From Sarcina sp. DSM 11001 (lineage in GTDB: Bacteria > Bacillota > Clostridia > Lachnospirales > Lachnospiraceae): a DNA stretch of 64,000 nucleotides. The stretch covers positions 23,159 to 87,158 of the forward strand of contig NZ_FNFZ01000016.1 of the NCBI RefSeq assembly GCF_900101015.1, given 5' to 3'. The position numbers were made by a program, and so were the translations under genes. How positions within the stretch are numbered: the first letter of the stretch is position 1; each line of letters starts with the position of its first letter. Shown here in pieces: positions 2,028-63,543 of the stretch. A model generated the notes under the pieces. That model saw only the letters and a program-made list of their open reading frames with translations, made no database searches and was not told where the DNA came from.

Positions 2028-5000
2028 ATGATATTTAAAAAGGAAAAAAGACAGAAAGAAGTATTTCTGCTTCTTTATACTATTCTGTTTTCCGTTTCTG
2101 CAGGAGTTATGCTCTGGTATTTCTCTGCAGCGGGAAAGCAGATGGTCTGGAAGGGCGACGGGCTTTCGCAGCATTATCTGGCCCTGTGTTATTACGCGAG
2201 ATGGGGAAAGGCTGTTCTTGGCAGCCTTCTTTCGGGGCGCCCTGCTTTTCCGACCTTCAATATGCATATGGGATTCGGCTCGGATCTGTTTACGACCCTT
2301 CAGTATTATGTGATCGGAGATCCCTTCAGCCTGCCGGCAGTCTTCGTGCCGCAGCGGTATATGCTGGAGTTTCATGATACCATGATCGTGCTGCGCATGT
2401 ATCTCGCAGGCTTAAGTTTTGACGGATACTGCCGCACCATGGGGCGCAGAGACCTGACCGGGAACCTCTGCGGGGCTCTGGTCTATGTCTTCAGTACCTT
2501 TGCCCTCTTTGGCATGCGTCATCCTTATTTCCTGAACGCCATGATTTGGTTCCCTCTCCTTCTGACCGGGGCGGAAAGAATCCTGCGGGGTTCGAAAGGG
2601 AGACTTTTTACCATCGCTGTTTTCCTGTCCTGCATCAGCAACTTCTATTTTTTCTACATGCTGGTGCTGATGACTGTGGTTTATGTTGTCTGGCGCGCCT
2701 GCCGGATTTTTCTCCGGTATACAAAGGGGGTGAAGGTACTCCTTCTCCTGGCAGGTAAGTTTTTGGCGCGCGGTGTCCTCGGCAGTGCTATGGGAGCGTG
2801 CTTTTTGCTGCCGATTCTGATCCGCTTTGTCGGAGATCCCAGGGCGGCCGGAGAGACAGTGTATGGAAAACTCTATAGCCTGTCTTACTATACAAAACTG
2901 CCGGAAGCCTTTGTCGCTTTCGGAACAGATGCCACACTGGAATACTGGACCTGCCTGGGATTCGGGGGGATCGGATTAGTCTGCGTCCTCCTGCTGATTC
3001 TGGATGCAGACAGGGAAAAGAAACTCCTTGATTTAAGACTTGCCTTTGCCGGAATGCTCCTGTTGACAGTACTCCCTTCCGCAGGAGCGGCCCTGAACGG
3101 CTTTTCCTACCCTTCGAACCGGTGGACTTGGGCTTTTGCCCTGCTGGCGGGATATATCACGGCGGTCATGATCCCCTCGCTTGCGAGGATCTCCTGGAAA
3201 AAGGCAGTGCTGCTGCTTGTATGTATCAACCTTTATGCAGTGGTCTGCTACCTGGCTCATGCCCACAGGAGTACTTACCCGGAGATGGCGCTGGCGGCAG
3301 TCGCAGTCCTCGCGTCAGTGTTTCTGCGCGCGGCAATCCGTGGGAATGGGAATGGAGCAGTTCTCACAGCGGCAAAGCCTGAGGCAGATTGCGCAGCCGC
3401 AGAATCTGAGGCATCCCCTGCAGCGGAGGGCAGTCCGATCTCCTCCTGCCCGGCAGCAGGCTGTCCGTCAGCCGCTTCCTGTCCGCTCGCGGAAAGAACA
3501 GGTCAGGAAAGCCCGGCGCAGGTGTGCCCGGCTCAGGGAAGTGCAGCTCAGGGAAATGCGGAAGACGGCAGATTATCGGACAGATTATCAGGCAGACTAT
3601 CTGACAGATCAGCAGACTCTTACCGGGATTCTTACCGGACCCCCTACCGGATGACCTCTGTGTCTCCGGCGCTGAGCGCTGTCCTTTTGGCAGCAGTCAT
3701 CGGGACTACAGCTCTGCACGCCTATGTGGACTTCATTCCGGGCCGGATGAACAGCAGTCTTGAGGAATATCATTCCAGGCAGTATATTGAAGCTATGCAG
3801 GCCTCCGATGCGGCGGGAATGAAGACTCTGATCGGAAATGACCGGTTTTACAGATATTCCGGAAGGAATCTGGCCAACAATTTTTCCCTGCTCCATGATG
3901 TGTCCAACACCCAGTATTACTGGAGCCTGTCAGACGGAGCGATCGAGCAGTTTTTTACAGAGACAGGACAGAGCAACGGCATGGTCCATCTGTACGACAA
4001 CCTCGACAACCGGACGATGACAGACGAGATCGCAGGTGTCAGATATCAGATCCGCAGCGACGGCTCTCTCCTGCCTTTTGGATATGAGAAAGTGGAAGGG
4101 CTCCACTACGACAACAGGGAGCTTTTTGAGGAAAAAAAGGACGACCCGCTTCCGGTGTTCGCTTTTTCCATATATGAAAATCAGTACACGCTGCCTCTGG
4201 GCTTTACCTGTGCGAAATATCTTTCCAGGGAGACCTATGACAGCCTGACGATCCCGCAGAGGCAGGAAGCCCTGATGCAGGGGATCCTGCTGGAAGAAGA
4301 GGGGGGCAAAGAGAATACCCTTTCAGCCCTGAAGGAACTCAAGGGAGACGCGCTTTCCTTTACCGGAAGGACTCTCCCGAACAGAGCCCGCGCTGAAGAG
4401 GGGATCGAGATCCTGCAGAATGACGAAGCGGGCGTCTGCTTCGAGGTCCGCGACACAGAGAAAGCGGTTTTCCTGGAAAATACGGAGGAGACGGGAGGCT
4501 GTGAGACAGGAGTTCTGTTTACCGGTATGGACTACGCGGCGCTTCCGGATGTCTCTGCAGAAGAGCAGCTCCGCTGGACCAATACAGACCCGGTGGAGAT
4601 CAAGGTGACGGCAAAACGGGACGGCCACACTGTCTCCACAAAGAAAGTGGCTTATACTCTTCCGGACAATCCCTGGAAGACGGGGAGGACGGATTTCCTG
4701 AGCAGCTGCGGTTATTCCGACCAGCCTCTGTCCAAGATCCGCCTGAAGTTTTCCAGACCGGGAATCTATTCCTTCCGGAGCCTTCAGGTGGTCTGCCAGC
4801 CCATGGAAGCTTATCCCGCTCAGGCGGAAGCCCTGCGGGAATATGTGATGGAGGAAACAGACCTGCATGAACTGCCGGGGAGCGGTGCGACCGACAGGAT
4901 CACAGGAAAGGTGACCCTGCCGGAGAGACGGCTCCTGTGCCTGCAGATCCCGCGCTGCAGAGGGATGCGGGCCTTTGTGGACGGCCAGGAAACAGAACTT

Positions 5001-5242: not shown

Positions 5243-6196
5243 ATGAAGGATCTGATCAGTATTATCGTGCCCTGTTACAATGAGGAAGAGTCTCTGCGGC
5301 TCTTTCACGAGGCGGTCAAAAAAACGGAGGCAAAGCTCCCGGATTACAGTTTTGAGATTCTGCTCGTGAACGATGGATCAAAGGACAGAACGCTGGAGGT
5401 CATGCGGGAACTGGCTCATCAGGACCCGGAGGTCAGCTATTTCAGCTTCTCGAGGAATTTCGGCAAGGAAGCGGCTATGTATGCCGGCTTCTGCCATGCC
5501 CGCGGGAAGTACGCGGCGGTCATGGATGCGGACCTGCAGGATCCGCCCGACCTGCTGCCCGAAATGCTTGAGATCCTCGAATCAGGCGAATATGACAGTG
5601 TGGCTGCCAGACGCGTGAGCAGGGCGGGAGAACCTCCCGTCCGGAGCTGGTTTGCCCGGCGTTTTTACAGCCTGATCAACAGCATTTCAGAGGCTGATAT
5701 CGTGGACGGCGCCAGGGATTTCCGCCTGATGAAAAGGGAGATGGTGGACGCGATCCTGGCGATGGGTGAATCCAACCGTTTTTCAAAAGGAATCTTTGGC
5801 TGGATCGGCTTCCGCACCTACTGGATGCCCTATGAAAATGTGGAGAGGGTCGCGGGCAAGACCAAATGGAATTTCTGGGGCCTGTTCGGATACGCGATCG
5901 ACGGCATCGTCAATTTTTCCCATGTACCTCTGGACATCGCTTCCTGGTTCGGGATCCTGATGACCATGGTCTCCTTTCTGGCGATCGCCTTTATCGTGAT
6001 CCGCAAACTCCTTTTTGGAGATCCGGTCGCGGGCTGGGCTTCGACAGCCTGTATCATCACTTTTATCGGAGGCATCCAGCTGCTCTGCCTGGGCATCATA
6101 GGCAAATATCTCGCGACTGTGTACCTGGAGGTCAAAAAAAGACCCCACTATATCATCAGCGAGAGCAGCCGGGAGGATGTAAAAAAGGTAGGGTGA
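5243..6196 (+). CDS. Family 2 glycosyltransferase, CsbB/GtrB-type (polyprenyl-phosphate sugar synthase)
   Basis: 317 residues: a GT-A domain starting ISIIVPCYNEEESL, with DADLQDPPDLL as the DxD region, then two C-terminal transmembrane helices. This is the architecture of CsbB, GtrB and DpmS-like enzymes, which load a sugar from a nucleotide donor onto undecaprenyl phosphate on the cytoplasmic face. The open frame extends upstream to 4937 but would overlap yfhO by 250 bases; the ATG at 5243 has a GGGG site and starts at the conserved domain edge. It is probably cotranscribed with yfhO, and the pair forms two of three parts of an envelope glycosylation system; no GtrA-like flippase is seen nearby. 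Its TGA lies inside a tandem 18-bp duplication. Confidence 0.88.
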   Translation: MKDLISIIVPCYNEEESLRLFHEAVKKTEAKLPDYSFEILLVNDGSKDRTLEVMRELAHQDPEVSYFSFSRNFGKEAAMYAGFCHARGKYAAVMDADLQDPPDLLPEMLEILESGEYDSVAARRVSRAGEPPVRSWFARRFYSLINSISEADIVDGARDFRLMKREMVDAILAMGESNRFSKGIFGWIGFRTYWMPYENVERVAGKTKWNFWGLFGYAIDGIVNFSHVPLDIASWFGILMTMVSFLAIAFIVIRKLLFGDPVAGWASTACIITFIGGIQLLCLGIIGKYLATVYLEVKKRPHYIISESSREDVKKVG

Positions 6197-6223
6197 TCCG
6201 TAGTAGTAGGGTGATCCGTAGTA
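6188..6223. repeat. 18-bp direct tandem duplication spanning a stop codon
   Basis: Two identical 18-bp units (GTAGGGTGATCCGTAGTA) sit side by side. The stop codon of the GT2 gene is the TGA in the first unit, so the duplication copied the gene's last codon and stop. Confidence 0.95.
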
Positions 6224-7798: not shown

Positions 7799-7816
7799 TG
7801 AGTATAGCAGGACAAA

Positions 7817-7897
7817 AAGGATTCCTGAAGGACGACTGGACATGGAGTTCTGAAAGGATTCCTGAAGGACGACCGGACATGGAGTTCTGAAGGATTG
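7817..7897. repeat. 37-bp tandem repeat, about 2.2 copies
   Basis: Between the kinase and regulator genes, a 37-bp unit starting AAGGATTCCTGAAGGACGAC is repeated with one substitution, and a third copy is truncated. It begins 19 bases after the kinase stop codon. Confidence 0.93.
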
Positions 7898-8009
7898 AAG
7901 TTCATGGATCCCTGTCCTTCCCGGACAGCGGGGAAGAATAGAGACGAAGAATAGAGACTGTGAAGAGAAAGGCAGAGAAGATAAGAGGCAGGAAAAAAGG
8001 AGTAAAAAT

Positions 8010-8862: not shown

Positions 8863-9867
8863 ATGGCAGACATAAATACAAAAAAAACAGCTGCATCGAT
8901 GAAAAAGAAAAGCAGGAATAAAAATATCGAAGATAATACCGGGAAAAATATTGGAGAAAAAACCGGAAAAAATATCGGAGAAAATATCAGGGAAAATATC
9001 GGGCAAAAAAGTACGGAAACTCGCGTGATGCGCCTGGACCGCCTCCTTGCGCAGGAGGGGTTCGGGACACGAAGCGAGATCAAAAAAGCTATACGCAGCG
9101 GCAGAGCTGCTGTGAACGGAACAATTGAAAAAGATCCCGGACGGCAGATTTCCTCTGATGACGAGGTACGGTTTGACGATAATGTAATCGCCCGCGCGGA
9201 GTTTGTCTACTATATGCTCTATAAGCCTGCGGGAGTGATCACCGCGACAGAGGACAGCCGGACAGCCACTGTCCTGGACCTTCTGCGCACGCCGGAATCT
9301 TCAGGAAGTCCGTCAGAGAGACAGCCCGCTCAGTCTTCCAGGGCTGTTCAGCCCGTTCTGCGCCGGGACCTTTTCCCGGTCGGACGGCTCGACAGGGATA
9401 CCGAGGGTCTGCTCCTCATCACCGATGACGGACAGCTGGCCCACCGCCTCCTGTCTCCCGGCCGGCATGTGGATAAAGTCTATTACGCAGTAGTGACCGG
9501 ACAGGTGACAGAGGAGGACAGGCGCCGTTTTGCAGAGGGGCTCTGTGTGGATGAATCGCTGACAGCTATGCCCGCCCGCCTTCTCTCAGCGGCGGAAGCA
9601 GCCCGGGAAACAGAGCAGCTCTCGGGCCTCATCCCGGAGGACCCGCAGCAGCTGATCCCGCCGGGAACCACTTCTTTTTCCCCGGTCCTCGTCACGATCC
9701 GGGAGGGAAAATTTCACCAGATCAAGCGCATGTTCGCCGCCGTCGGGAAGGAAGTCCTGTATCTCCGACGCCTTTCTATGGGACCGCTGCTGCTGGATGA
9801 GGCACTGTCTCCAGGCGAATTCAGGGAACTGACACAGGAAGAGATCCGGCTTCTCAGGGAAACATGA
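8863..9867 (+). CDS. RsuA/RluB-family rRNA pseudouridine synthase
   Basis: The conserved protein starts at M56 (9028) with MRLDRLLAQEGFGTRSE, an S4-type RNA-binding domain, followed by the catalytic domain with GRLDRDTEGLLLIT carrying the catalytic aspartate, and KFHQIKRMF near the end. Members isomerise one uridine in 16S or 23S rRNA; the exact site cannot be told from sequence. Residues 1-55 are a Lys/Asn/Gly repeat tract of KNIGE-type units that is not part of the family. No good ribosome binding site precedes 8863, 8899 or 9028, so the true start is uncertain; the extension may be an in-frame minisatellite that captured an upstream ATG. A short Ser/Gln/Arg insert lies at about residues 146-165. 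Confidence 0.85.
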   Translation: MADINTKKTAASMKKKSRNKNIEDNTGKNIGEKTGKNIGENIRENIGQKSTETRVMRLDRLLAQEGFGTRSEIKKAIRSGRAAVNGTIEKDPGRQISSDDEVRFDDNVIARAEFVYYMLYKPAGVITATEDSRTATVLDLLRTPESSGSPSERQPAQSSRAVQPVLRRDLFPVGRLDRDTEGLLLITDDGQLAHRLLSPGRHVDKVYYAVVTGQVTEEDRRRFAEGLCVDESLTAMPARLLSAAEAARETEQLSGLIPEDPQQLIPPGTTSFSPVLVTIREGKFHQIKRMFAAVGKEVLYLRRLSMGPLLLDEALSPGEFRELTQEEIRLLRET

Positions 9868-9976: not shown

Positions 9977-12274
9977 ATGAAAAAAGAAAATAAGAAAGGG
10001 ACCGGGCAGGATAAAGCCAAGTCAATTCTGTCCGGATGGAAAAAATCGATTTGCGTTTTTGCTGCTGTCCTGACAGCTGCGTGTTTTCTTGGCTCATGCG
10101 GTCCGGAACCCGGGCCCGGGGAGAGCGCGGGCGCCCTGTTTGGAGAAGGACAGCCTTTAGAGGAATCTTCAAAGCCGGAAGCGCAAAGCTCCCAGAGTTC
10201 TGTGCAGCCCGGAGTGGAAGCAGGGAACACAGCCGGGTCAGCAGGCGGAAATACAGCAGCTTCTGTGGGAGCGGCGGGGGAAATGCCGGATGCAGCACAG
10301 AACGGTGTCTCCGGCCAGGGATCAGACAGTGCTTTGTCTGCGGGAATCCGGGGTACGGTCTCGAAGATGGACAGTGGAAAGCTGGCAGAGCTGGAGGCTT
10401 ACCTCAATGAGGAAAGCAGCTACGGCTTCCTGCTCTCCTCCTATGAACAGCCTCAGGAGATCGACCTGAACCAGGTCTTTTATGCCGGCGCAGGATTCGA
10501 GCAGAAAGGAATTACTGAAAAAGAAAGAAAGCTCCTGGTGGAGCGCATGCCGGTAAAAGAGATCACGATGCCTGTCAACAAGGTGAGAGAGGAAGATGTC
10601 GAAGCTCTTTTAAAACAGAAGACAGGCCTGTCTCATGAGGAGTTTCTGCATCCTCTCGGAGACCTGGAGGAATGGGCTCACATCGGCAGATATAACAGCT
10701 GGTATACTTTGAACGCGGAAACAAACCGCAAACAGATCCTGTGCACCGACGCCTGGGAGCAGGGAGATCAGGTCATCGTACATTACCAGCTTGGGAAACC
10801 GGTCATCCATCCCTTGCCGGAAGACCCGAAAGAATCCTCAGGACCTGAAAAATCCGGAAGGGCTGAAAAAACCACAGGGACTGAAAAAACCGCAGGAACT
10901 GATAAGCCCTCAAAGACTGAAAAATCCTCAGAAGCTGAATTTTCCGGAACATCAGAAACAACCGCTGCTTATGCCGGCACCGCACAAACGACAGCGGATG
11001 CGGACATGGCCGCAGAAATTGCCGGCACCGCGCAAACGTCAGCGGATGCGAGTATGGCCGCAGAAATTGCCGGCACCGCAGAAACAGCAGCGGATGCGAA
11101 TATGGCCGCAGAAATTGCCGGCACTGCAGAAACAGCAACGGATGCGAATATGGCCGCAGAAATTGCCGGTACAGCGGACACTATTGCGGAAGCGGACATC
11201 GACGAGGAAAAAACGACCGCTTTTTACAGACCCTTTTATGAAGCACGGCTCAAAAAAACCACAGATGGCTGGCAGTTTTGTTCCAACATCCTCTGGGTGC
11301 AGAAGGACCTCATCGAGGCCCAGTCTTACTTGGCAGAGCTTGATGATGAGGGAGAAGTCCTTTTCGCTCCCTTCTTTCCGGACACATCCGTATCAGGAAA
11401 TGCGGACGTCTCTTTTGGTCTGGTCCGCCGGCATGCCCTGTTGGCCCTGCTTGACCCCATGGAAGAAGGAAACATCCGGACAGACCTGACTTTTGAAGGC
11501 GTCGATGCCGTGGATTTCACAGATTACAACGGCGACGGGTGCCAGGACATCCTGACGGTCTGCAGATATACCAGAACCGGCAGCGACAGCAGGAGAACGA
11601 ACGGGATCCGGGAGGCAAGAGTCTATACCGGGCAGAAAGAAGGTTTTCCTGTCCTCAATCTCAAAAAGACAGAGGAAGTGAATAAAAACGTCCATACCCT
11701 GGACATTACGGACATCACTCAATATCTCACCGGCGAGTCCGACGGCAGTACAAAAAAATATAACTCATGGAAAGAGGCTTTTGCAGACCGCATCCGGCAT
11801 ACGGACAAAAACGAATACGACGGTTTTGCCCTGATCTATCTCAACGACGACCGGGTGCCCGAACTCGTACAGGCCGGCGCGACTTCCGCCAAGGGAGCGA
11901 CCGTAGTGGTTTACAAAAACGGATCCCTTCAGGAGACCTGGCTCAACCGCCGTTCCTTCCGCTATCTCGAATACGAAAACCTGCTCTACAGCGCCTCGGG
12001 CATGGAAAACCTGCACTTTGACTCTTTTTACAGCATTACCGGAGGCCAGCTGGGCCTGTCCGTGCAGGGATACTATGGAAACAAAGAATTCGCTCGGGTA
12101 CGGTATGATGAGAAGGGAAAGGAAATCTACAATTATTTCTGGGACGGAGGAGAAGTCTCACGCAGCGGTTACAGTGACGGCATCATGTTCGTATTTGACT
12201 TGTCCAGAGCAAAGACCTGCGGAGAGGGCGAAAACATCCTCACCGCAGAGGAAATGCTGGAAAAACTGAAATAA
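9977..12274 (+). CDS. Large repeat-containing surface lipoprotein, function unknown
   Basis: 765 residues. The start has a basic N-region, a hydrophobic stretch and the lipobox-like FLGSCGP (cysteine near residue 42), so export and lipidation are likely. Residues 50-115 are Ala/Gly/Ser-rich. Two repeat tracts follow: short TEKTAG-type units at about 10830-10940, and 16-residue units of the form ADANMAAEIAGTAETA (48 bp, about 4.5 copies) at 10975-11190. The C-terminal half contains DYNGDGCQDIL and LIYLNDDRVPELV, reminiscent of Asp-rich FG-GAP-like strands, and resembles uncharacterised Clostridia lipoproteins. An AGGAAAG site supports the start. No enzymatic motif is evident; it could bind an external ligand or polymer. 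Confidence 0.75.
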   Translation: MKKENKKGTGQDKAKSILSGWKKSICVFAAVLTAACFLGSCGPEPGPGESAGALFGEGQPLEESSKPEAQSSQSSVQPGVEAGNTAGSAGGNTAASVGAAGEMPDAAQNGVSGQGSDSALSAGIRGTVSKMDSGKLAELEAYLNEESSYGFLLSSYEQPQEIDLNQVFYAGAGFEQKGITEKERKLLVERMPVKEITMPVNKVREEDVEALLKQKTGLSHEEFLHPLGDLEEWAHIGRYNSWYTLNAETNRKQILCTDAWEQGDQVIVHYQLGKPVIHPLPEDPKESSGPEKSGRAEKTTGTEKTAGTDKPSKTEKSSEAEFSGTSETTAAYAGTAQTTADADMAAEIAGTAQTSADASMAAEIAGTAETAADANMAAEIAGTAETATDANMAAEIAGTADTIAEADIDEEKTTAFYRPFYEARLKKTTDGWQFCSNILWVQKDLIEAQSYLAELDDEGEVLFAPFFPDTSVSGNADVSFGLVRRHALLALLDPMEEGNIRTDLTFEGVDAVDFTDYNGDGCQDILTVCRYTRTGSDSRRTNGIREARVYTGQKEGFPVLNLKKTEEVNKNVHTLDITDITQYLTGESDGSTKKYNSWKEAFADRIRHTDKNEYDGFALIYLNDDRVPELVQAGATSAKGATVVVYKNGSLQETWLNRRSFRYLEYENLLYSASGMENLHFDSFYSITGGQLGLSVQGYYGNKEFARVRYDEKGKEIYNYFWDGGEVSRSGYSDGIMFVFDLSRAKTCGEGENILTAEEMLEKLK

Positions 12275-12366: not shown

Positions 12367-12545
12367 GTCATTTTAAACTGGTCAATAAAGCTTAAACGAG
12401 CCAATAAACGAAGCAATAGAGCTTAAACAAATCAATAAAGCTTAAACGAGCCAATAAACGAATTAATAGAGCTTAATCGAGTCAATAAAGCTTAAACGGG
12501 TCAAAAAACTTGAATGGGTAAATAGTTTTAACGAGTCAATGAAAA
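12367..12545. repeat. Tandem array of about 17-bp units in about 50-bp higher-order repeats
   Basis: Units of the form AATAAAGCTTAAACGAGYC alternate with AATAAACGAATTAATAGAG-type units to give roughly 50-bp higher-order copies. The array fills the gap between the lipoprotein gene and metF and ends at the metF ribosome binding site. No SAM or cobalamin riboswitch was recognised in this gap. Confidence 0.85.
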
Positions 12546-13467: not shown

Positions 13468-14268
13468 ATGAATGTGGACAAAAGAGAGATTTACCGCTAT
13501 CTGGGTTATCAGGGCCGAGTCCCGGATGAAAATGTCCTCAGGGAAGTGGACAGGTGCCTGGAGGAGCTTCGGGAGGCAGTGACACCCAGATTCGTCTATC
13601 GGCAGTATCCTATAGAAAGATTTTTTACGGACAATATAGAAAGACCTTTTTTGGACGAAAAACCGGGGGCCGAACTTTTTATAGAAAAACCTTTTTTGGA
13701 CGAAAAACCGGGGACGGAACTTTTTATAGACAGACCTTTTTCGGAGGAAAAACCGGGGACAGAACTTCTGTCTATCGCCGGTATGAAGATTCAGAGCAGG
13801 AGCCTGTGCCGCAATCTGCGGGATTGTAAGAGTGCATATCTGATGGCTGCAACTCTGGGGATTGGTCCGGACCGCCTGATCGCAAGGGCGAGCGTGGCTA
13901 AGATGAGCCGGGCGGTGATCCTGCAGGCGGCGGCCGCCGCCATGATCGAAGCCTGGTGTGATGAAGTCAATCAGAAGATCATAAAAGAGGCGGAGGACCA
14001 GGGGCTTTACTGCAGACCCCGATTTTCTCCGGGGTACGGAGATTTTTCCCTGGAATATCAGAAGGACTTTGCGCAGATCCTGCGCATACAGAAAGAAATC
14101 GGAGTGTCTCTGACGCAGAGCCTGCTTATGATGCCGTCAAAATCCGTCACAGCCGTCATAGGCTTGTCCCCTGTAAAAAAAGAATGTGCGCTCCACGGCT
14201 GCGAGGTCTGTTCAAAAGCCGAAGAATGCAGTTTTTCCCGTATAAAGGCTTTGGAACAGCAGCCATAG
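13468..14268 (+). CDS. Stand-alone methionine synthase reactivation-domain protein
   Basis: 266 residues matching the vitamin B12-dependent methionine synthase activation domain, encoded as a separate gene; the MetH downstream lacks this domain. The domain binds S-adenosylmethionine and helps remethylate oxidised cob(II)alamin. Seen: YRYLGYQGRVPDE at the N-terminus, RARASVAKM-like helices, and RPRFSPGYGDFSLEYQ, the conserved RxxPGYG-type SAM-binding loop. An in-frame insert of three 15-residue repeats (45-bp units, 13638-13772; core FLDEKPGTELFI) splits the N-terminal part. The C-terminus adds a CALHGCEVCSKAEEC cysteine cluster, seen in clostridial homologues and possibly metal binding. The electron donor is unknown. 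Confidence 0.88.
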   Translation: MNVDKREIYRYLGYQGRVPDENVLREVDRCLEELREAVTPRFVYRQYPIERFFTDNIERPFLDEKPGAELFIEKPFLDEKPGTELFIDRPFSEEKPGTELLSIAGMKIQSRSLCRNLRDCKSAYLMAATLGIGPDRLIARASVAKMSRAVILQAAAAAMIEAWCDEVNQKIIKEAEDQGLYCRPRFSPGYGDFSLEYQKDFAQILRIQKEIGVSLTQSLLMMPSKSVTAVIGLSPVKKECALHGCEVCSKAEECSFSRIKALEQQP

Positions 14269-14451
14269 GGTACTGAAGCAATTCAGCCTGATACTGACTC
14301 AATACAGTAAAGATATACGAAAAGATAAATGAAACAATAAATGAAATAATAAAACAGGCAGCATTCAGGCAGACAAAATCATAATATTTTACAGCCGTAG
14401 TAATTAATAAGTCCTTTTAGTGCCTCTGCTGCTGAGCATGGAGAACTACGA

Positions 14452-22606: not shown

Positions 22607-22720
22607 GCGACGGTAAAAAGAAAGAGTGGCTTTTTTGAGGTACATGTTGCCTCTTTTGCGCGCGTATCCCCCGACTGAAGACATGGGTATTACGCGATGA
22701 AGAATATAATTAAATGTCAT

Positions 22721-24420: not shown

Positions 24421-24438
24421 TGTAACGGGGTGTAACGC

Positions 24439-24889: not shown

Positions 24890-24901
24890 GTTAGGGGAAT
24901 A

Positions 24902-44143: not shown

Positions 44144-44171
44144 AGAAGCTTCGCATTAAAGGTTGTTAAAT

Positions 44172-47256: not shown

Positions 47257-47334
47257 CCAAATCCCTCGCAAAATCTTTACTTATTAGCAAATCCCTCGCA
47301 AAATCTTTACTTATTACCGCGCTGCGGGTACAAT
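47257..47334 (+). promoter_or_regulatory. fic promoter overlapped by a 30-bp direct repeat
   Basis: TTTACT (47306-47311), 17 bases, TACAAT (47329-47334), 25 bases before the fic ATG. Two copies of a 30-bp unit containing AAATCCCTCGCAAAATCTTT (47257-47316) end over the -35 box, a good position for an operator. Confidence 0.6.
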
Positions 47335-48274: not shown

Positions 48275-48367
48275 AGACTGATTATGAAAATATAATTATG
48301 AAAATATACTGCTTTGGCAGTTTATTCAACTTTGAGATAACAAATTTTTTACGAGGGAGAAAACACT

Positions 48368-48736
48368 ATGAAAAAAATCGAAACAAAAAACGCACCCGGC
48401 GCAATCGGTCCCTATTCCCAGGGCTTTGTGATCAACGGTTTTGTTTTCACATCCGGTCAGATCGCGATCGATCCCGCGACAGGAGAGATGCCGGAAGGGA
48501 TCGCAGCACAGACAGAGCAGTGCTGCAAAAACGTGCTGGCAATCCTGGAGGCGGCCGGCTCCGGTGCCGGGAAAGTCATTAAAACCACCTGCTTCCTCGC
48601 CGAGATTGCTGATTTTGCTGCCTTCAATGAAGCTTATGCCAGGTACTTCACATCTAAACCGGCGAGAAGTTGTGTTGCGGTAAAGGATCTGCCCAAGGGC
48701 GCGCTCTGCGAGATCGAGTGCATCGCGGAAGCCTGA
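48368..48736 (+). CDS. ridA: RidA-family enamine/imine deaminase
   Basis: 122 residues. APGAIGPYSQGF, TSGQIAIDPATGEMP, and the C-terminal signature RSCVAVKDLPKGALCEIECIA with the conserved arginine near residue 100 that hydrolyses 2-aminoacrylate-type intermediates. A GGGAG site lies upstream. Length normal. Confidence 0.95.
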   Translation: MKKIETKNAPGAIGPYSQGFVINGFVFTSGQIAIDPATGEMPEGIAAQTEQCCKNVLAILEAAGSGAGKVIKTTCFLAEIADFAAFNEAYARYFTSKPARSCVAVKDLPKGALCEIECIAEA

Positions 48737-48850
48737 TGATTCCTGAGAATCAGACTTTTCGACACATATCTGATGAATCCTGAGAATCAGACTTTTCGAT
48801 ACATATCAGATGAATCCTGAGAATCAGACTTTTCGATACATATCAGATGA
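48734..48850. repeat. 37-bp tandem repeat, three copies, starting at the ridA stop codon
   Basis: Each copy holds TGAATCCTGAGAATCAGACT or a close variant; the first reads TGATTC-CTGA-GAATCA and can form a short hairpin followed by CTTTTCG. The tandem copies may therefore multiply a weak terminator. Confidence 0.93.
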
Positions 48851-49031
48851 ATCCTGCGCAAAAAGGTATTAATTCAGATATTATCAGTCCTTCCTTTTTA
48901 TCATGAACCTTTAAATTATGAAGAAGTATGAAAAAATAGAAGATTTATGATAAAATATGAACGTCAGGCGGAATTATGAAAAAAGCTGCATTGTGATCGT
49001 ACAGGCACAATAGATGTAACCGGATAGATAA

Positions 49032-49130
49032 AACAGAAAAAAGATATAACAAGAAAGATACAGCAGAAAAAAGATGCAATAGGAAAGATACAGCAGAAAA
49101 AAGATGCAATAGGAAAGATACAGAAGAAAA
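49032..49130. repeat. 30-bp tandem array, about three copies
   Basis: Units contain ATACAGCAGAAAAAAGATGC; flanks are also A-rich. No gene is seen between 48737 and 49236. Confidence 0.93.
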
Positions 49131-49236
49131 ACAACATAAAAAGAAACAGCCGGATGGATACAATTGCATAGATCAGTAACAAAACAGAAAGTAAAAACAA
49201 AACTGATTTGAACAAGAAGGAATGCAGTAGAGTGCT

Positions 49237-51749: not shown

Positions 51750-53075
51750 ATGCCAGTCATCGCAATTGCAGCCCGAAACAGAATATGGATTTTGCTGATT
51801 GCGGCCATCGTCGATCTTTCAGTCGGAGATCCGCCCGGACTCTGGCACCCTGTACAGGGCATCGGAGCCCTCATCAGCAGAACAGAATCCGGCCTTCGCC
51901 GACTCTTTAAAATCCCCGTGGGAAAAGAGAAACTGTCTCACAACATTAACAACATTAACAATGCTGATAATGCTCGCAGCGCTCAAGACACTCAAGACAC
52001 TCAAGACAACCAAGACACTCAAAACACTCAACACACACAAAACACTCAAAACACACAAAGCACACAAAACGCTCAAGACACTCAAGACATTCAAAATGCT
52101 CAAGATACTCAAAACGCGAGAGAGTCTCGGGAGCGTGCCGCGGGCGGTGTTTTGGTTCTGCTGGTCCTCATTGCCAGTACAGGCCTGGTCCTCCTTCTCC
52201 TTGCCCTCTGCCGCAGGATCAACCCCTGGCTCGGGATCATAGCGGAAGGAATCCTCTGCGGACGCCTGCTCGCGCTCCGGAGCCTGAGGGAAGCTGCTTA
52301 TGCTGTGCGCGACCCTCTGCTGCAGGGAGATGTGGACGGGGCCAGAAGGGCAGTCTCCATGATCGTCGGTCGGGATACAGACCCCCTCAACGCAGAAGGC
52401 ATCGCCAAAGCCGCTGTGGAAACCGTTGCTGAAAACACCTCCGACGGCGTGACTGCTCCTCTTTTTTATATGATTTTGTTCGGAGGCATCGGAGGGATTT
52501 TCTACAAAGCCGTCAACACCATGGATTCCATGATCGGTTATAAAAATGACCGCTACCGCTTTTTCGGAACCGCTGCGGCAAGGCTCGATGACGTCATGAA
52601 CTACATTCCGTCCAGACTCTCAGCTTTGCTGATGATCCTGACCTGTGCGGTGCCCTTCAAAGGGATATCCAATCCTCAGAGCCCAAAAGGTATATTTCAA
52701 AGTAAATCACGGGGCAGATTAAAAGAAGAATCGCCGGACAGCCAGCAAGGGGAATCACAGGACAAAGTACGAAAGGAATTGCCGGACATGCGCGCCGCCT
52801 TTCGAATCTGGCGAAGAGACAGGAGGAAGAGCCCCAGCCCCAATTCCGCCCAGACAGAATCCGTCTGTGCAGGTGCCCTGCATCTGCGCCTGCTCGGAGA
52901 CACCTGGTATTTCGGGAAACTCCACCATAAGGCTGAAATCGGTGACGGAGACCGGACTGTAGAGCCGCATGATATCACCCGCGCAGTCTCTTTAATGGTC
53001 CGCACCTCCCTTTTGCTCTATGTGATTGGAACAGCTGTCCTGCTGGCCCTGATTAAGTTATTGTGCTGGCCCTGA
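51750..53075 (+). CDS. cbiB: Adenosylcobinamide-phosphate synthase
   Basis: 441 residues from ATG 51750 (a GTG at 51723 is possible; neither has a good ribosome binding site). VDLSVGDPPGLWHPVQGIG, GRDTDPLNAEGIAKAAVETVAENTSDGVTAPLFY and a C-terminal DTWYFGK are CbiB landmarks in a membrane protein. It attaches aminopropanol (phosphate) to adenosylcobyrate. Two in-frame inserts break it: 9-bp CAAGACACT-type repeats giving DTQNTQ units (51985-52120) in the first loop, and a polar Ser/Glu/Arg tract (52680-52850) before the C-terminal helices. Conserved segments remain intact. Confidence 0.92.
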   Translation: MPVIAIAARNRIWILLIAAIVDLSVGDPPGLWHPVQGIGALISRTESGLRRLFKIPVGKEKLSHNINNINNADNARSAQDTQDTQDNQDTQNTQHTQNTQNTQSTQNAQDTQDIQNAQDTQNARESRERAAGGVLVLLVLIASTGLVLLLLALCRRINPWLGIIAEGILCGRLLALRSLREAAYAVRDPLLQGDVDGARRAVSMIVGRDTDPLNAEGIAKAAVETVAENTSDGVTAPLFYMILFGGIGGIFYKAVNTMDSMIGYKNDRYRFFGTAAARLDDVMNYIPSRLSALLMILTCAVPFKGISNPQSPKGIFQSKSRGRLKEESPDSQQGESQDKVRKELPDMRAAFRIWRRDRRKSPSPNSAQTESVCAGALHLRLLGDTWYFGKLHHKAEIGDGDRTVEPHDITRAVSLMVRTSLLLYVIGTAVLLALIKLLCWP

Positions 53076-53111
53076 TTGAGTTGTCCCGCCGGGCCCCGAC
53101 TGCGATTGCCT

Positions 53112-53190
53112 CTAAAGCAATACCCTGAAAAATGCCTTTACAGAAATACTCTGAAAAAAGGCTTTACAGCAATACCTGAAAATAAGCGGT
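53112..53190. repeat. About 27-bp tandem repeat, three copies
   Basis: AATACYCTGAAAAAWGSCTT-like units between cbiB and cobS. Confidence 0.75.
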
Positions 53191-53980: not shown

Positions 53981-54178
53981 AAATACTTCCTTAAGGTGCT
54001 GCCGGAGTCGTCGCTGTAGTGACATCACTGCAGCGATTCTACGATAAGAAAGACATCCTTAGAGTGCCACCGGACAGAGTGCCACCGGACAGAGTGCCAC
54101 CGGATAGAGTGCCACTAGATAGAGTTTTACCAGATAAAGTGTCACCAGACAGAGAAGCAACAGATAAAGTGTAACCAG
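53957..54178. repeat. Duplicated cobS 3' end plus 15-bp tandem array
   Basis: The segment 53957-54009 (end of cobS, stop and following bases) recurs, diverged, at 54022-54078. The last part of the second copy then seeds AGAGTGCCACCGGAC units that repeat with drift to 54178. Confidence 0.8.
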
Positions 54179-54290
54179 ATTGTTTCCCCATAATAGTTAT
54201 CCATGGTATGGCACAATCGAGAAACCAAAGTGCTTAGGACCTGAAGAGACCAGATCTTTCTTCTGCCAGTCCCTCCAGTCCCTGCCAGCC

Positions 54291-57662: not shown

Positions 57663-57721
57663 TGAACTGATTTTAAAAAAATTCTCGTCTTTTGAGGACC
57701 CTTACTGGCGTTCTTATTTTT

Positions 57722-57785
57722 ATAGGTGTTCGTATAGGTATTCGTATGGGTATTCGTATGGGTATTTGTATGGGTATTCTTATAG
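57722..57785. repeat. 12-bp tandem array, about five copies
   Basis: TATTCGTATGGG units, ending at the cobU ribosome binding site. Confidence 0.93.
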
Positions 57786-58379: not shown

Positions 58380-58556
58380 ACTGTTGCAATAGCCTGTTGA
58401 AATGAGCTGCTTAAACGGGCTGCTGCAATGAGATGCAAAAATGAGTCACTGAAACAGGCTGCTGCAATGAGCCGCAAAATGAGTCGCTGAAAAAGGCTGC
58501 TGTAATGAGCCGCAAAAATGAGTTGTTGTAATAGGCTGCTGCAATGAGCCATTATA
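58380..58556. repeat. Imperfect tandem array after cobU
   Basis: GGCTGCTGCAATGAGCCGCA-like units with AAAATGAGTCRCTGAAAM linkers, about four higher-order copies, starting at the cobU stop codon. Confidence 0.85.
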
Positions 58557-59117: not shown

Positions 59118-60470
59118 ATGAAATATAACATAAAGACACAAAAACACTCAAAAAGACACTTAAAAAAAACCTTGAAAAAACAGAAAAAACACCTGTTAAA
59201 GACCGCAGCAACCGCACTCAGCGCCCTGTTCATGGCAGCTATGCTGCTTCTATGCACAGCCTGTTCCCGGAAAGAGGACGGCGGAACACAGAATACAGAG
59301 ACTGTACAGAATACAGAGACCACACAGAATACAGAGAACACACAGAATACAGACGGCGAAACTACACCGGACACTGTGAATGATTCTTCGGGCGCAGATG
59401 GAACCTCAGCGGCCGCAATGATCTCAGCCACCGCGCAGCCGACAGGTACGTCAGATCCTTCAGAGTCCTCAGGCGCTGAAACATCACCCACCGCAGCCAC
59501 ATCATCCGCCGCCGCAGCCACATCCGCCCCGGCAGTCTCAGCTGTTGCGGGGACCGCATCCACTGCCGCAGCCCCGGAGTACAAAGGCCTGGTCGTCATC
59601 GACCCGGGACACCAGCAGTACGCCAACACAGAACAGGAACCGGTCGGCCCCGGCGCTTCCGAGACCAAGATCAAGGTCAGCGGCGGCACTACCGGCACAG
59701 CCACCGGCGTGCCGGAATACGAGCTCACCCTCGACATCGGCCTCCAGCTGCGGGATAAACTACTGGAGCGCGGCTACCGGGTCATCATGGTCCGCGACAC
59801 CAACGAAGTCGACATCAGCAACTCGGAGCGCGCCGAGATCGCCAACGAAGCCGATGCGGACGTATTTATCAGGCTCCACGCCAACGGATCCCCCGATTCC
59901 AGTGTCACAGGCGCCATGACCATCTGCCAGACCCCGGCCAATCCTTACAACGGCGACATCTACGAACAGTCCCGCGCACTCTCCGAAAACATACTGGATT
60001 CCTACATATTTAAAACCGGCATCAACCGCCAAAACATCTGGGAGACAGACACCATGAGCGGCATCAACTGGAGCGAAGTCCCTACAACGATTCTCGAGAT
60101 GGGCTTCATGTCAAATACCGGCGAAGACCGCAGCATGCAGGACGACGACATGCAGCAAAAAATGGTCGAAGGCATAGCGGACGGGATCGACGAATATATG
60201 AAACAATTCCCGCCCAAAGAACGGGATGAGACTTTCTTCAGGCAAAACGAAGAGGAAGAAGCCTCTTCTGAGCAGAACAACTCCCGGGAAACCTCTGAAG
60301 AAGATCTTTCTAAAGAAGAAACCTCCGGAGAGACAGAAGAGTCCTCTGAAGAAGAGTCCTCTGAAGAAGAGTCAGTCCCTGACGGGAAAACAAAAGCCGA
60401 AACAAAAGAAGGAATAAAAGAAGAAACAGAAGGCCCGCCCGAAGGAACCGCAGCAGCAGAAGACAATTGA
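59118..60470 (+). CDS. N-acetylmuramoyl-L-alanine amidase lipoprotein
   Basis: 450 residues. A Lys-rich N-region, helix and LLLCTACSRKE lipobox (cysteine near 52) are followed by TQNTET repeats (59284-59360) and an Ala/Ser/Thr linker. The Amidase_3 domain (about 155-370) shows VVIDPGHQQ (zinc His), PEYELTLDIGLQL (zinc Glu), FIRLHANGS (zinc His) and LEMGFMSN with the catalytic Glu. It cleaves the amide between MurNAc and the stem peptide. The C-terminus is an EESSEEES-type acidic repeat tail. GGAG site upstream. Confidence 0.92.
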   Translation: MKYNIKTQKHSKRHLKKTLKKQKKHLLKTAATALSALFMAAMLLLCTACSRKEDGGTQNTETVQNTETTQNTENTQNTDGETTPDTVNDSSGADGTSAAAMISATAQPTGTSDPSESSGAETSPTAATSSAAAATSAPAVSAVAGTASTAAAPEYKGLVVIDPGHQQYANTEQEPVGPGASETKIKVSGGTTGTATGVPEYELTLDIGLQLRDKLLERGYRVIMVRDTNEVDISNSERAEIANEADADVFIRLHANGSPDSSVTGAMTICQTPANPYNGDIYEQSRALSENILDSYIFKTGINRQNIWETDTMSGINWSEVPTTILEMGFMSNTGEDRSMQDDDMQQKMVEGIADGIDEYMKQFPPKERDETFFRQNEEEEASSEQNNSRETSEEDLSKEETSGETEESSEEESSEEESVPDGKTKAETKEGIKEETEGPPEGTAAAEDN

Positions 60471-60582: not shown

Positions 60583-62181
60583 ATGGGCATTTATTTAAAC
60601 CCGGGAAATGAAAATTTCAGGGAAGCCGCAAACGCTGAAATCTATGTCGATAAGACGATGATGATAGAAGCAGTGAATCACATGATGAAAAAAGGGAATA
60701 AATACATCTGTAATTCGCGCCCCAGACGTTTCGGTAAGACCACTACATGTGAAATGCTCTGCGCCTATTATTCCAGGGGATGTGATTCCGGAGAACTTTT
60801 TGCGCCTTACAAAATCGCTTCATCTCCCTCCTATGAGGAAATGCGGAATAAATACAATGTCATCAGAATCGACATGAACAGCGAATATCAGAATGCCGGC
60901 AATAAAGAGCAGTTTCTGAAAGAACTGACCAGGGAAATCATCAGCGAATTCAGAACCGCCTGGCCTGGCGTGTCCTTTAATGAAGACGATTCGCTGGCCA
61001 GGTCTATATTGCGTGTATACGCGGCGACCGGCGAGACCTTTGTGATCCTCATGGATGAATATGATGTCCTTGTCAGGGAACAGGCTTCGCAGACCCTGTT
61101 TGAGGAATACCTGTCCTTCTTAAACGGCCTTTTTAAAAGCAGCACCGTCAGACCTGCCGTCTCTCTTGCCTATTTGACCGGTATCTTGCCTGTAGTCAGG
61201 GATAAAATCCAGTCCAAACTGAATAATTTCCGGGAGTATACCATTCTGGATGCGGGGCCGCTGGCGGAGTTCATCGGTTTCACGGGAGAAGAAGTAAAGG
61301 CTCTGTGTGACACGCACGGAATCAATTTTGAAGAGTGCCGCCGCTGGTACGATGGATATTCGCAGCACGGGTATGAGATTTACAACCCGGAATCTGTAGT
61401 GGTCTGCATTGAACAGAAGGAATTTGGCAGTTACTGGGGGAAAACATCCTCCTACGAGGTTATTTCAGACCGGATCCGTATGAATTTTGCGGGGACAAAA
61501 GATGCCGTCATCAGGATGCTTGCCGGGGAGGAAGTGGATGTCAACGTGACCCGCTATCTGAATACCATGACCTCCTTCAGGACCAAAGACGATCTGTTCA
61601 CCTACCTGATCCACCTGGGCTATCTCGCTTATCGCAGAGTAACAGGAAATGAAGGAACCTGCAGAATCCCCAACTGGGAGGTGCGCCAGGAATGGTTCAA
61701 TGCCATCGAAGAAGAGGAGGAGTATGCCATCACGTCGCAGATCATCAGCGATTCCAAAGAACTTTTGAAAAAAAACCTGGAAGGGGACGAACAGGCTGTT
61801 GCAAAAGCACTGGACGTCTCCCACATCCATGTTACCAGTAATCGGAGCTACAACAATGAGGACGCCCTGCAAAGCGCTATCTATCTCGCTTATATATATG
61901 CTTTAAACCGCTACACCATAGTCAGGGAGATGACAGCCGGAAAAGGCTTTGCCGACGTAGTGTTCCTTCCCGTTCAAAGAACAGACACGGCAATGATCAT
62001 CGAGCTGAAAAAGAACGGGAATGATGGCGGCGCCGCGGGAGCCCTTGACCAGATTCGCCGGAAACAGTACTTTGACAGCCTGACGCATTACCAGGGGAAC
62101 CTCCTTTTTGTGGGAATCGACTACGACGAAAAAGAGAAAACCCATGCCTGCAGGATGGAGAGATTTTATAAGGATCAGTGA
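60583..62181 (+). CDS. AAA-ATPase-like protein with PD-(D/E)XK domain
   Basis: 532 residues, close in layout to the protein at 281: YLNPGNENF start, P-loop RPRRFGKTT at 46-54, FVILMDEYDVLV as Walker B, and FADVVFLPVQ...MIIELKKNG as the nuclease-like core. GAAGGAAG lies upstream. Two members of one subgroup bracketing the window suggests a mobile or repeatedly duplicated family. Function unknown. Confidence 0.85.
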   Translation: MGIYLNPGNENFREAANAEIYVDKTMMIEAVNHMMKKGNKYICNSRPRRFGKTTTCEMLCAYYSRGCDSGELFAPYKIASSPSYEEMRNKYNVIRIDMNSEYQNAGNKEQFLKELTREIISEFRTAWPGVSFNEDDSLARSILRVYAATGETFVILMDEYDVLVREQASQTLFEEYLSFLNGLFKSSTVRPAVSLAYLTGILPVVRDKIQSKLNNFREYTILDAGPLAEFIGFTGEEVKALCDTHGINFEECRRWYDGYSQHGYEIYNPESVVVCIEQKEFGSYWGKTSSYEVISDRIRMNFAGTKDAVIRMLAGEEVDVNVTRYLNTMTSFRTKDDLFTYLIHLGYLAYRRVTGNEGTCRIPNWEVRQEWFNAIEEEEEYAITSQIISDSKELLKKNLEGDEQAVAKALDVSHIHVTSNRSYNNEDALQSAIYLAYIYALNRYTIVREMTAGKGFADVVFLPVQRTDTAMIIELKKNGNDGGAAGALDQIRRKQYFDSLTHYQGNLLFVGIDYDEKEKTHACRMERFYKDQ

Positions 62182-62283: not shown

Positions 62284-63543
62284 ATGAAAAAAAGAATAAC
62301 CAGAATCATCACAATTGTCTTCATCTGCGCCCTTGTCGCCTCCTGCTTTCTGCAGGGATGCGCGCAGAAAGACGGCAATTCCACATCACAGGGACAGGAG
62401 AATGCAGAACAGGGTATGACTGACGACAATAATAAAAACGGATCCAGGTCCGGCTCCGCTGCCGGAGCAAATACAGACGCAGAAAAGAATAACACCACAA
62501 AAGGGAATATCTCTGTAAATAAGGATACTCAGGCCGGCACGGGAGGGACTTCAGATGCAGCCGGTCATGCAGGCTCTGCCTCGACTGCCGCACCCTCTTC
62601 CGGAACCGCTGGCTCCTCCGCGTCTTCCTCCACGGCTTCCACCGCTGGCTCCGCCGCCACTAAAAAAGATTCCACCCTCTCCCCGGAAATGTCCGCCCTG
62701 GACAAAAAACTCCGCGAGGAGCTCGAAAACAAGAGCGGCGACTGGGCCCTCTACCTGTACCGCCTTGACACAGACGAAGAGATCGCCATCAACGCCGACC
62801 AGCCCATGGTCTCCGCCAGCCTCATCAAACTCTACATCGCCGGCTGCTACCTCGAGCGCGTCAAAAAGGGCAAACTGGACGACAACTACGACTACCAGCT
62901 CTTCAAGATGCTCTCGGAAAGCGACAATGGAGCCACCAACACCCTGATCGATGTCCTCGGCATGGACAGGATCAACCGCTTCATGAAAAAACACCACTTC
63001 AAGGCCGGCAAGCTCAACCGCAAAATGCTGGTGCAGAACGGCACGGAAAACTACACCTCCTCTGCCGACTGCGGCAAAGTCCTCCGCGAGGTCTACAACT
63101 GGGACTACGTCAACCCCGACAGCTCCGCCCGCGTCATGAGAGCCCTCTGGGCCCAGATCCCCAGAAACCGCCAGAAGATCCCCGCAGGCGTCCCCTCGGA
63201 CATCGAGACCGCCAACAAGACCGGAGAACTCTACACACATGACCAGAACGGCACCGGCATAACCGTCCAGAACGACGCCGCCGTCATCTTCGCCCCCGAC
63301 CACCCCTACATCCTCGTCGTCATGACTGCAGTCCCCGGCGGAGGCGAAGGCCAGCTCCACAGAGAGATCGCCGGCCTCTCCGCCCAGGTGTACGAGGCCA
63401 TCTGCGGAACCAAGGAAGAGGAGTCGGAAACGGGCGAAAGTGCCATAAGTGGCGGAACTGACCAAAGCGGCGAAAGTGCCGTAAGTGGCGGAACTGCCCA
63501 AAGCGGCGAAGGCGCCGCCACAGGAAGCACAGGGAACAAATAA
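62284..63543 (+). CDS. Class A beta-lactamase-like serine hydrolase lipoprotein
   Basis: 419 residues. Signal with FLQGCAQKD lipobox (cysteine near 22), then about 115 residues of Ser/Thr/Ala/Gly linker. The catalytic domain (about 135-375) has SASLIK (nucleophile SxxK), SDNG (SDN motif) and NKTGEL (KTG motif). It is beta-lactamase2-like; such lipoproteins can be penicillin-hydrolysing or peptidoglycan-related enzymes, and a class A Glu166-type ELN loop is not obvious. The C-terminus has SGGTDQSGESA repeats (63448-63515). No clear ribosome binding site. Confidence 0.85.
   Translation: MKKRITRIITIVFICALVASCFLQGCAQKDGNSTSQGQENAEQGMTDDNNKNGSRSGSAAGANTDAEKNNTTKGNISVNKDTQAGTGGTSDAAGHAGSASTAAPSSGTAGSSASSSTASTAGSAATKKDSTLSPEMSALDKKLREELENKSGDWALYLYRLDTDEEIAINADQPMVSASLIKLYIAGCYLERVKKGKLDDNYDYQLFKMLSESDNGATNTLIDVLGMDRINRFMKKHHFKAGKLNRKMLVQNGTENYTSSADCGKVLREVYNWDYVNPDSSARVMRALWAQIPRNRQKIPAGVPSDIETANKTGELYTHDQNGTGITVQNDAAVIFAPDHPYILVVMTAVPGGGEGQLHREIAGLSAQVYEAICGTKEEESETGESAISGGTDQSGESAVSGGTAQSGEGAATGSTGNK

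Follow-up and report, generated by a model that had tools for sequence, protein, structure and literature searches.

Short tandem duplications throughout the genome of a rumen Lachnospiraceae bacterium and their probable origin in a lineage-enhanced, reading-frame-filtered process

Introduction

Tandem arrays in bacterial genomes are commonly ascribed to slippage, and the variable-number tandem repeats (VNTR) used in multiple-locus VNTR analysis (MLVA) usually comprise a few dozen typed loci per genome. The 64,000-nucleotide stretch of Sarcina sp. DSM 11001 that was analysed here (hereafter the window; positions 23159-87158 of contig C27 in genome G000, a 4.15 Mb draft in 76 contigs) holds arrays of the same type, of which about 390 occur in 787 kb of this genome. 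These arrays are likely to be the products of a tandem-duplication process that acts genome-wide, is enhanced in the lineage and is followed by a filter. Two further systems differ from them. In yeast, FEN1/rad27 mutators show raised tandem duplication of tens of base pairs flanked by short direct repeats, whereas births in G000 mostly lack flanking repeats, and its PolA carries the 5′ nuclease domain. Elements of the Rickettsia palindromic element type are dispersed, in frame and recur in sequence at different loci, whereas the units in G000 do not recur between loci beyond the random level. By MetH (80 loci kept), the nearest named relatives are metagenome-assembled genomes (MAGs) of rumen Lachnospiraceae, such as RUG375, UBA4380, RUG12263 and RUG12566, at 78-82% identity.

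Repeat-rich bacterial genomes with active arrays are already known, Ehrlichia ruminantium being the clearest case. The published account describes an obligately intracellular bacterium with a genome of about 1.3 Mb, of which about 64% is coding, and intergenic tandem repeats, located in the noncoding regions, that actively expand and contract (PMC10710844). The arrays of G000 also lie mainly between genes (211 of 393); however, G000 is a rumen Firmicute of 4.15 Mb with a coding fraction of 0.79 (388 kb) or 0.81 (787 kb), and arrays occur, nearly always in frame, in 18% of its sampled genes. In mammalian cells, short tandem duplications with mostly little homology result from fill-in at staggered breaks, with dependence on nonhomologous end joining (NHEJ) and, at 3′ overhangs, on CST and Pol alpha-primase (PMC8355091). 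The duplications in G000 are likewise short and mostly show little homology, but neither Ku nor an ATP-dependent ligase turned up in the genus, so that a joiner in this lineage would have to differ. In ordinary bacterial species, a comparative survey reports that direct repeats flank only 10-18% of small variable segments, favouring illegitimate recombination; most of these segments are replacements, and minisatellites make up 2-4% of the tabulated variable loci of E. coli (PMC2884548). The predominant lack of flanking direct repeats is shared with G000, whereas the events there are tandem duplications rather than replacements.

No paper on a tandem-repeat burst in Lachnospiraceae was found in a literature search, on which the novelty of the present observations rests. 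Compared with the known repeat-rich genomes, G000 stands out by combining high gene density with coding arrays that are in frame, by its strong contrast to other members of the genus and by a readable birth signature. The birth of tandem repeats is usually masked by later slippage; here, young duplications are common, the signature is legible, and the genus also offers low-repeat species as controls.

Tandem arrays in the window and across the genome

Tandem Repeats Finder reported 88 rows in the window, which merged into 56 arrays covering 5,153 bp (8%). Dinucleotide-preserving shuffles of the window (n = 10) yielded 0, 0, 1, 0, 0, 0, 1, 0, 1 and 0 arrays, and 50 kb of E. coli K-12, under identical settings, 1 array. 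The window is richer in arrays than the G000 average, with 8.8 per 10 kb vs 4.6 per 10 kb in a separate 400 kb. In 787 kb of G000 (19% of the genome), 138 coding, 211 intergenic and 44 mixed arrays were counted, and at least one array was present in 92 of the 514 genes (18%) that a simple home-made gene finder called there. The arrays are real and genome-wide.

Within the window, 26 arrays are coding, 22 are intergenic and 8 straddle the edge of a called gene; retraining the gene model on more DNA changed this split to 25, 25 and 6, with coding periods divisible by three in 25/25. A preliminary description of the window had reported tandem repeats in unrelated proteins, with units that are multiples of 3 bp. 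Both statements hold: an array was found in 16/16 of the proteins named, at or near the positions given there and, for MnmA, exactly at them, and the rule of three applies to 26/26 coding arrays. That account listed coding arrays only, however, and while these are genuine, it overlooked the intergenic ones, which are the denser class (1.93 vs 0.49 arrays per kb under the retrained model). The coding arrays are as follows.

3531-3617, plus strand: YfhO; 1.9 copies of 15 bp and 4.1 of 12 bp, in frame, within the YfhO family region
8920-9019, plus strand: RsuA-like pseudouridine synthase; 3.5 copies of 24 bp in the N-terminal tail preceding the S4 domain
10828-11169, plus strand: lipoprotein; 5.7 copies of 18 bp (10828-10930) and 4.1 of 48 bp (10972-11169), in a linker that differs or is missing in relatives
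13635-13767, plus strand: MetH reactivation protein; 3.0 copies of 45 bp
16336-16409, plus strand: MetH; 2.5 copies of 30 bp in the linker joining the pterin-binding and B12-binding domains
18307-18369, minus strand: MnmA; 2.3 perfect copies of 27 bp in a 50-residue insert between the HUP and PRC-barrel domains
23432-23556, plus strand: Rpn-like protein; N-terminal 48/24-bp array
28434-28567, plus strand: DUF6273 protein; 42/21-bp array close to the N-terminus
30246-30351, plus strand: DUF6273 protein; 2.9 copies of 36 bp preceding the DUF6273 domain
33387-33616, minus strand: HelD-like helicase; 6.1 copies of 12 bp and 1.9 of 45 bp, N-terminal region
35785-35907, plus strand: EamA transporter; 63/21-bp array in the first half
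38394-38584, plus strand: DUF6765 protein; 4.0 copies of 48 bp within the domain
40569-41590, plus strand: periplasmic-binding protein; three tracts (36, 36 and 24 bp) preceding the binding domain
44971-45120, plus strand: BtuD-CbiA fusion; 18- and 15-bp arrays separating the ABC and CbiA domains
45599-45743, plus strand: BtuD-CbiA fusion; 12-bp arrays within the CbiA match
46451-46623, plus strand: BtuD-CbiA fusion; 30/15- and 18-bp arrays in the GATase_3 region
51982-52112, plus strand: CbiB; 14.6 copies of 9 bp within the family region, directly ahead of the best-matched stretch
59286-59353, plus strand: amidase; 3.8 copies of 18 bp in an N-terminal linker
60335-60373, plus strand: amidase; 2.6 copies of 15 bp in the C-terminal tail
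63433-63510, plus strand: serine hydrolase (Beta-lactamase2); 2.2 copies of 36 bp in the C-terminal tail

In the 787 kb, intergenic DNA carries 1.38 arrays per kb vs 0.22 in coding DNA (6.4x). The period is divisible by three in 134 of the 138 coding arrays, the other four being frame-shifting, whereas intergenic periods fall into the three residue classes modulo 3 as 85/63/63 (n = 211); the slight intergenic excess of multiples of three (P = 0.03) may come from undetected short genes. As a third of the value for intergenic DNA comes to 0.46 per kb, frame-preserving arrays inside genes survive at roughly half the intergenic level. Periods that are not triplets are thus common between genes and rare within them, which points to a general mutation process whose products are sifted by reading frame and fold. 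An in-frame filter of this kind is ordinary and not peculiar to G000, the period being divisible by three in 62/68 coding arrays of 72 other named loci. The arrays lying between genes or across gene ends, given without strand, are listed below; the two lines that mention the dispersed GGGACGGTYCTTTTG element are taken up again at the end.

6188-6223: 18-bp two-copy duplication without flanking homology, across the end of a glycosyltransferase-like gene
7816-7958: intergenic; 2.2 copies of 37 bp and 2 perfect copies of 13 bp
12382-12540: intergenic; 50/19-bp array
14325-14353: intergenic; 2.4 copies of 12 bp
20550-20704: 45/22-bp array in the gap between panB-like and panC-like genes
22715-22954: 26-bp (22715-22770) and 84-bp (22786-22954) arrays with the dispersed GGGACGGTYCTTTTG element
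24688-24785: intergenic; 2.3 copies of 43 bp with the dispersed GGGACGGTYCTTTTG element
27901-28061: intergenic; 8.7 copies of 18 bp
35272-35383: intergenic; 9.3 copies of 12 bp
37172-37253: intergenic; 5.9 copies of 14 bp, a period that is not a multiple of 3
40094-40189: intergenic; 7.9 copies of 12 bp
42692-42839: intergenic; 9.0 copies of 16 bp
47258-47316: intergenic; 2.0 copies of 30 bp
48281-48308: intergenic; 2 perfect copies of 14 bp without flanking homology
48735-49131: intergenic; 3.3 copies of 37 bp and 4.0 of 30 bp
53107-53182: intergenic; 3.0 copies of 26 bp
54060-54180: intergenic; 15/30-bp array
57715-57785: intergenic; 24/12-bp array
58400-58550: intergenic; 39/77-bp array

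The signature of duplication births

Isolated exact two-copy duplications were taken as the youngest events, and the number of extra matching bases beyond the two copies was denoted h. Among 66 such duplications in the 787 kb, h was 0 in 36, 1 in 12, 2 in 8, 3 in 2 and at least 4 in 8, compared with 36.8, 18.6, 7.1, 2.4 and about 1, respectively, expected without homology. Values of up to 3, in 58/66 duplications, thus come near the no-homology expectation, and direct flanking repeats are not the rule: most births in G000 need no flanking repeat. The unit lengths (p) of these duplications are broad, from 10 to 51 bp.

Exact intergenic duplications with p of at least 13 numbered 30 in 82 kb of G000, 15 in 55 kb of six other genomes of its clade (see below) and 0 in 58 kb of 16 low-repeat genomes, whereas intergenic units of 4-7 bp are in no greater excess in G000 than in the low-repeat genomes. 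Units of 8 bp lie in between, with 8 vs 2.0 expected in G000 and 2 vs 0.8 expected in the low-repeat genomes. This enrichment of the longer but not of the shortest units indicates that the raised process is size-specific, unlike ordinary slippage.

The ends of the duplicated segments show a preference for T, which initially emerged, at bases two and three, from the first sample. At the third base inward, with both ends read on opposite strands, T occurs in 42/84 (P = 1.3e-4, uncorrected for 19 positions); in held-out DNA (25 events) the count is 24/50, with P = 8e-4 against flank composition and 0.016 against unit composition. A symmetric end preference is the mark expected of paired cuts on opposite strands, the signal being modest. 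Hairpins were seen at 8/48 duplication sites vs 3.5 ± 1.9 in controls, a weak difference. Units matched those of another array in 29/391 cases vs 35/391 for random segments; the units are therefore unrelated across loci, which excludes the spread of one element as the main source.

Distribution among relatives

The comparison of array density centred on the GTDB genus and the 72 named loci, with 19-40 kb from each of ten genomes outside the genus. Seven members of the genus (G000, G018, G008, G014, G010, G011 and G009) form a high group with 2.36-5.34 arrays per 10 kb, vs 0-1.47 in the other 18, some of which contributed little sequence (3 kb from G021, 6.8 kb from G023); the boundary between the groups was set with the densities already in view. 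G000 has the highest density among genomes sampled over at least 20 kb. Early values from small samples (G007, 3.3 per 10 kb from 3 kb; G014, 0 from less than 5 kb readable) were discarded in favour of larger samples.

In the MetH tree, which comprises 26/32 rows (G010, G006, G013, G015, G016 and G019 were left out; plus-strand matches only), six of the seven high genomes fall into one 9-row clade with 100/100 support. In the seven close named loci, 126.5 kb of sequence contained 33 arrays (2.6 per 10 kb), compared with 117 in 1,293 kb of the 72 others (0.90 per 10 kb, median 0.55). The excess is strongest in one clade but patchy.

L030 and L032, two loci of the clade with about 90% identity, differ by 10 indels of at least 6 bp, 5 of which are tandem events; six control pairs at 88-91% identity show 1 tandem event among 51 indels (Fisher P = 2.4e-4), two further control pairs at 85-86% 1 among 38, and L037/L038, of the sister clade, 1 among 31.

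Location of the inserts in proteins

Insert placement was assessed from Pfam matches and alignments to sequences of the Protein Data Bank (PDB). By Pfam, the majority of the tracts in the window lie in tails or between domains, so that the placement at domain edges asserted in the preliminary description is right for most tracts but fails for DUF6765, CbiB, YfhO, EamA and two BtuD-CbiA tracts, which lie within the Pfam family match; the lipoprotein and the Rpn-like protein gave no Pfam match. The array-holding insert of 50 residues in MnmA falls exactly between the HUP and PRC-barrel domains, where the solved structure of E. coli MnmA, 2der, has no residues. In MutS of G000, encoded outside the window, about 65 additional residues (411-475) that hold arrays correspond to three residues in the solved MutS structure 7ai5. 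A MutS-like protein (L211, 3381-5312) carries an array in an insert that splits its MutS_V match in two, and an array is also present in a UvrD-like helicase of G000. With 92/514 genes affected, these three proteins among them, the genome amounts to a natural experiment on the insertion tolerance of proteins.

The repeat insert of the L211 protein lies between Walker A and Walker B as these were read by eye; G011 and G014 have a match that is split at almost the same place.

The genes from YfhO to MetH co-occur in loci of several relatives. At the MetH linker, the insert of the MetH-reactivation protein, the RsuA tail, the YfhO insert and the lipoprotein linker, the inserts of relatives differ in sequence and length or are absent; identical inserts of equal length were not found at these five sites. 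The comparison covered these five proteins, close relatives being too scarce among the loci for MnmA, HelD, EamA and others. The earlier suggestion of a genome-wide process making minisatellites that are tolerated at flexible sites is supported by arrays throughout the 787 kb, a frame filter that applies in genes only, and inserts at sites that vary among relatives or lie between domains.

Repair genes

Ku was found in 0/25 genomes of the genus and ATP-dependent DNA ligase (PF01068) in 0/31 genomes; the PolX palm was likewise found in 0/31, a weak negative because the model matched 3/14 control genomes and none above the cut-off. The gain of any of these three as the cause is not supported. 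The PolA 5′ nuclease is present in 25/25 genomes, G000 included, as is the MutS family (25/25); RecJ was found in 30/31 genomes (26 over the cut-off) and MutL over the cut-off in 28/31. MutS of G000 is intact, with 975 aa and all five Pfam domains, and its MutL matches positions 1-554 of 555 in a 795-aa frame. The loss of MutS, MutL, the PolA 5′ nuclease or RecJ is not supported as the cause in G000, given that all four are present with full-length matches. In G011 (75% complete), only MutS paralogues and no MutL over the cut-off were detected; missing contigs may account for this gap.

A search for SbcC gave no genome at the model cut-off. A long SbcC-like frame (1,211-1,361 aa) exists in 7/7 high-repeat genomes, as well as in G041 and G043, but the form with a split match also occurs in low-repeat genomes, for example G005 and G007 (1,147-1,155 aa), and so fails to separate the two groups. 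G000 holds two different SbcC-like proteins (C33:40127-44101 and C69:3208-6444), and a shorter form with a continuous match is shared by G000 and 11 low-repeat genomes.

Origin of the arrays

The course of events that we favour starts with the copying, head to tail, of a segment of some 9-50 bp, mostly, as the statistics of h show, without a flanking direct repeat. From two copies, an array could grow by slippage or unequal exchange to about 15 copies, as the long homogeneous arrays imply, and would decay by point mutation, consistent with the imperfect units. The filter lets any unit length persist between genes but, within them, hardly any that is not a multiple of 3, and there the arrays sit mainly in linkers, tails and loops, as described above. 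The likeliest physical cause of birth is the repair of staggered breaks, or of nicks on opposite strands, by fill-in and joining: fill-in of the stretch between the cuts would copy it without homology and treat both ends alike. With the fill-in and the joiner both hypothetical, this cause is put forward tentatively. Still more speculative is its attribution to an altered or dedicated nuclease, topoisomerase or repair activity that would make staggered cuts in pairs, weakly favouring T two bases inside each cut, followed by Ku-free filling and joining. If true, it would represent a bacterial mutator that produces tandem duplications independently of both NHEJ and homology and keeps on lengthening the linkers of proteins. 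The responsible locus, if one exists, would be a determinant of the bacterial tandem-duplication rate.

Several observations weigh against a lineage-enhanced process of homology-free duplication. As to birth, h of at least 4 in 8/66 isolated duplications exceeds the expected value of about 1, and this minority may have used a flanking repeat; with multi-copy arrays still included, the first 328 kb gave 27/66 in this class, and the isolation filter also drops cases with h of at least 0.6p. Other genomes of the clade fit the no-homology model less well (h of at least 3 in 5/13). In low-repeat and distant genomes, h is 0-1 in 14/18 isolated duplications, so that birth without homology is probably a universal feature, with only the rate being special here. 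The end-base signal is modest, and the strongest T of the discovery sample, at the second base, was not replicated (17/50 held-out). No tested gene separates high from low genomes or explains the rate; as the genus yielded no Ku, ATP-dependent ligase or PolX, fill-in and joining would lack a known joiner.

As to distribution, two loci of the clade are poor in arrays (L032, 0 in 12.7 kb; L035, 3 in 22.5 kb), whereas 8/72 loci outside it reach 2.5-5.7 per 10 kb (L051, L070, L087, L075, L038, L090, L042 and L063); this recount of named loci led us to reject confinement of the excess to one clade. Beyond the genus (n = 10), G036 has 2.5, G027 and G028 2.0 and G034 1.75 arrays per 10 kb; the corresponding values for G042, G043 and G045, which are unplaced on the tree, are 2.0 (20 kb), 1.75 and 0. 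These high densities outside the clade weaken the case for a process enhanced in the lineage. The tree requires 4 label changes, at least 3 of them forced, and 40/500 shuffles were as low (L029, L032 and L035 unlabelled). Pairs within the clade at 81-83% identity show 4 tandem events among 109 indels, which is not above the controls, perhaps owing to the decay of copies. Finally, the coding fraction is 0.79-0.90 in the clade vs 0.86-0.95 in low genomes sampled above 7 kb, and weaker purging in a less gene-dense clade may add to the pattern. An excess in density is found against most sampled members of the genus, but it is patchy, with other lineages and some genomes beyond the genus rich as well.

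Weaker purging could even suffice by itself, with no raised mutation rate, if small insertions persisted longer in this lineage under weaker selection in looser genomes. The lower coding fraction, the large size of several genomes of the clade (4.15 Mb in G000), the occurrence of similar homology-free duplications at low frequency elsewhere and the patchiness among relatives, which differences in selection would suit, all make this a serious though unlikely alternative. Relaxed purging does not account for the enrichment of units of at least 13 bp but not of 4-7 bp, nor for the L030/L032 pair, in which tandem indels only are raised and the other indels (5 in 12.4 kb) stay within the control range; moreover, the contrast is largest in young perfect duplications, the class least exposed to selection. 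We infer a raised birth rate rather than weaker purging alone.

Classical slippage involving short direct repeats, at a frequency raised through a defect of replication or repair (loss of mismatch repair or of flap/exonuclease processing), is the common attribution of bacterial arrays and would surely be required, or else exchange, for growth to many copies. The duplications with h of at least 4 (8/66 isolated, 27/66 unfiltered) suit it, as does the lack of a full MutS or of MutL over the cut-off in the incomplete clade member G011. As the source of births it is nonetheless improbable: the majority of isolated births in G000 have no flanking homology, MutS, MutL, the PolA 5′ nuclease and RecJ are full-length there while the gap in G011 may reflect missing contigs, and the 4-7 bp units, which would be expected to rise, are in no greater excess than in low-repeat genomes, so that slippage and the loss of mismatch repair fit poorly.

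Mobile in-frame elements, or the target-site duplications left by transposons after excision, would also look like homology-free duplications, and copies of the GGGACGGTYCTTTTG element are found within or next to four arrays of the window; but the broad range of unit lengths, 10-51 bp rather than a fixed value, and the locus-specific unit sequences (29/391 vs 35/391 random) make such an origin very improbable. That the repeats are selected contingency loci, kept because changes in copy number switch genes, is scarcely credible even though some arrays precede genes or occur in exported proteins, since with 134/138 coding periods in frame a change by one unit would leave the frame as it was, and arrays occur in housekeeping enzymes including MutS, MnmA and MetH. 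An assembly or sequencing artefact, conceivable for long homogeneous arrays open to miscounting in multi-contig drafts such as G000 and its relatives, can be practically dismissed, because the units are imperfect, the arrays in genes are filtered by frame, and relatives from projects with other names, such as RUG375 (L029) and RUG12566 (L033), show a similar excess.

Dispersed element and other observations

A dispersed element with the core GGGACGGTYCTTTTG has 10 exact copies within positions 22722-31166 of the window and near copies at 42555 and 56068, compared with 0.3 copies of the core expected in the window at up to 2 mismatches. Exact copies are present in 6/255 loci: L115, L122, L241 and L245 (G000) and L192 and L198 (G014 and G011). 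Four arrays of the window are located in or adjoin copies of this element (22715-22770, 22786-22954, 24688-24785 and 30964-31000) and may have a partly different history.

Four loci of other lineages, L051, L070, L087 and L075, show 3.7-5.7 arrays per 10 kb, a density at the level of the clade, each as a single locus and an independent case. Two gene fusions were encountered: a single frame at 44163-46997 of the window joins a BtuD-like ABC-transporter ATPase to CbiA and GATase_3, and one frame at 5347-6366 of L211 joins RNase HI to dUTPase (PF00075, PF00692). Three AAA-ATPase_like/PDDEXK_9 proteins are encoded within 62 kb of the window (281-1885, 24902-26668 and 60583-62181), and the gene at 281-1885 has related DNA elsewhere in G000, at 66-81% identity.

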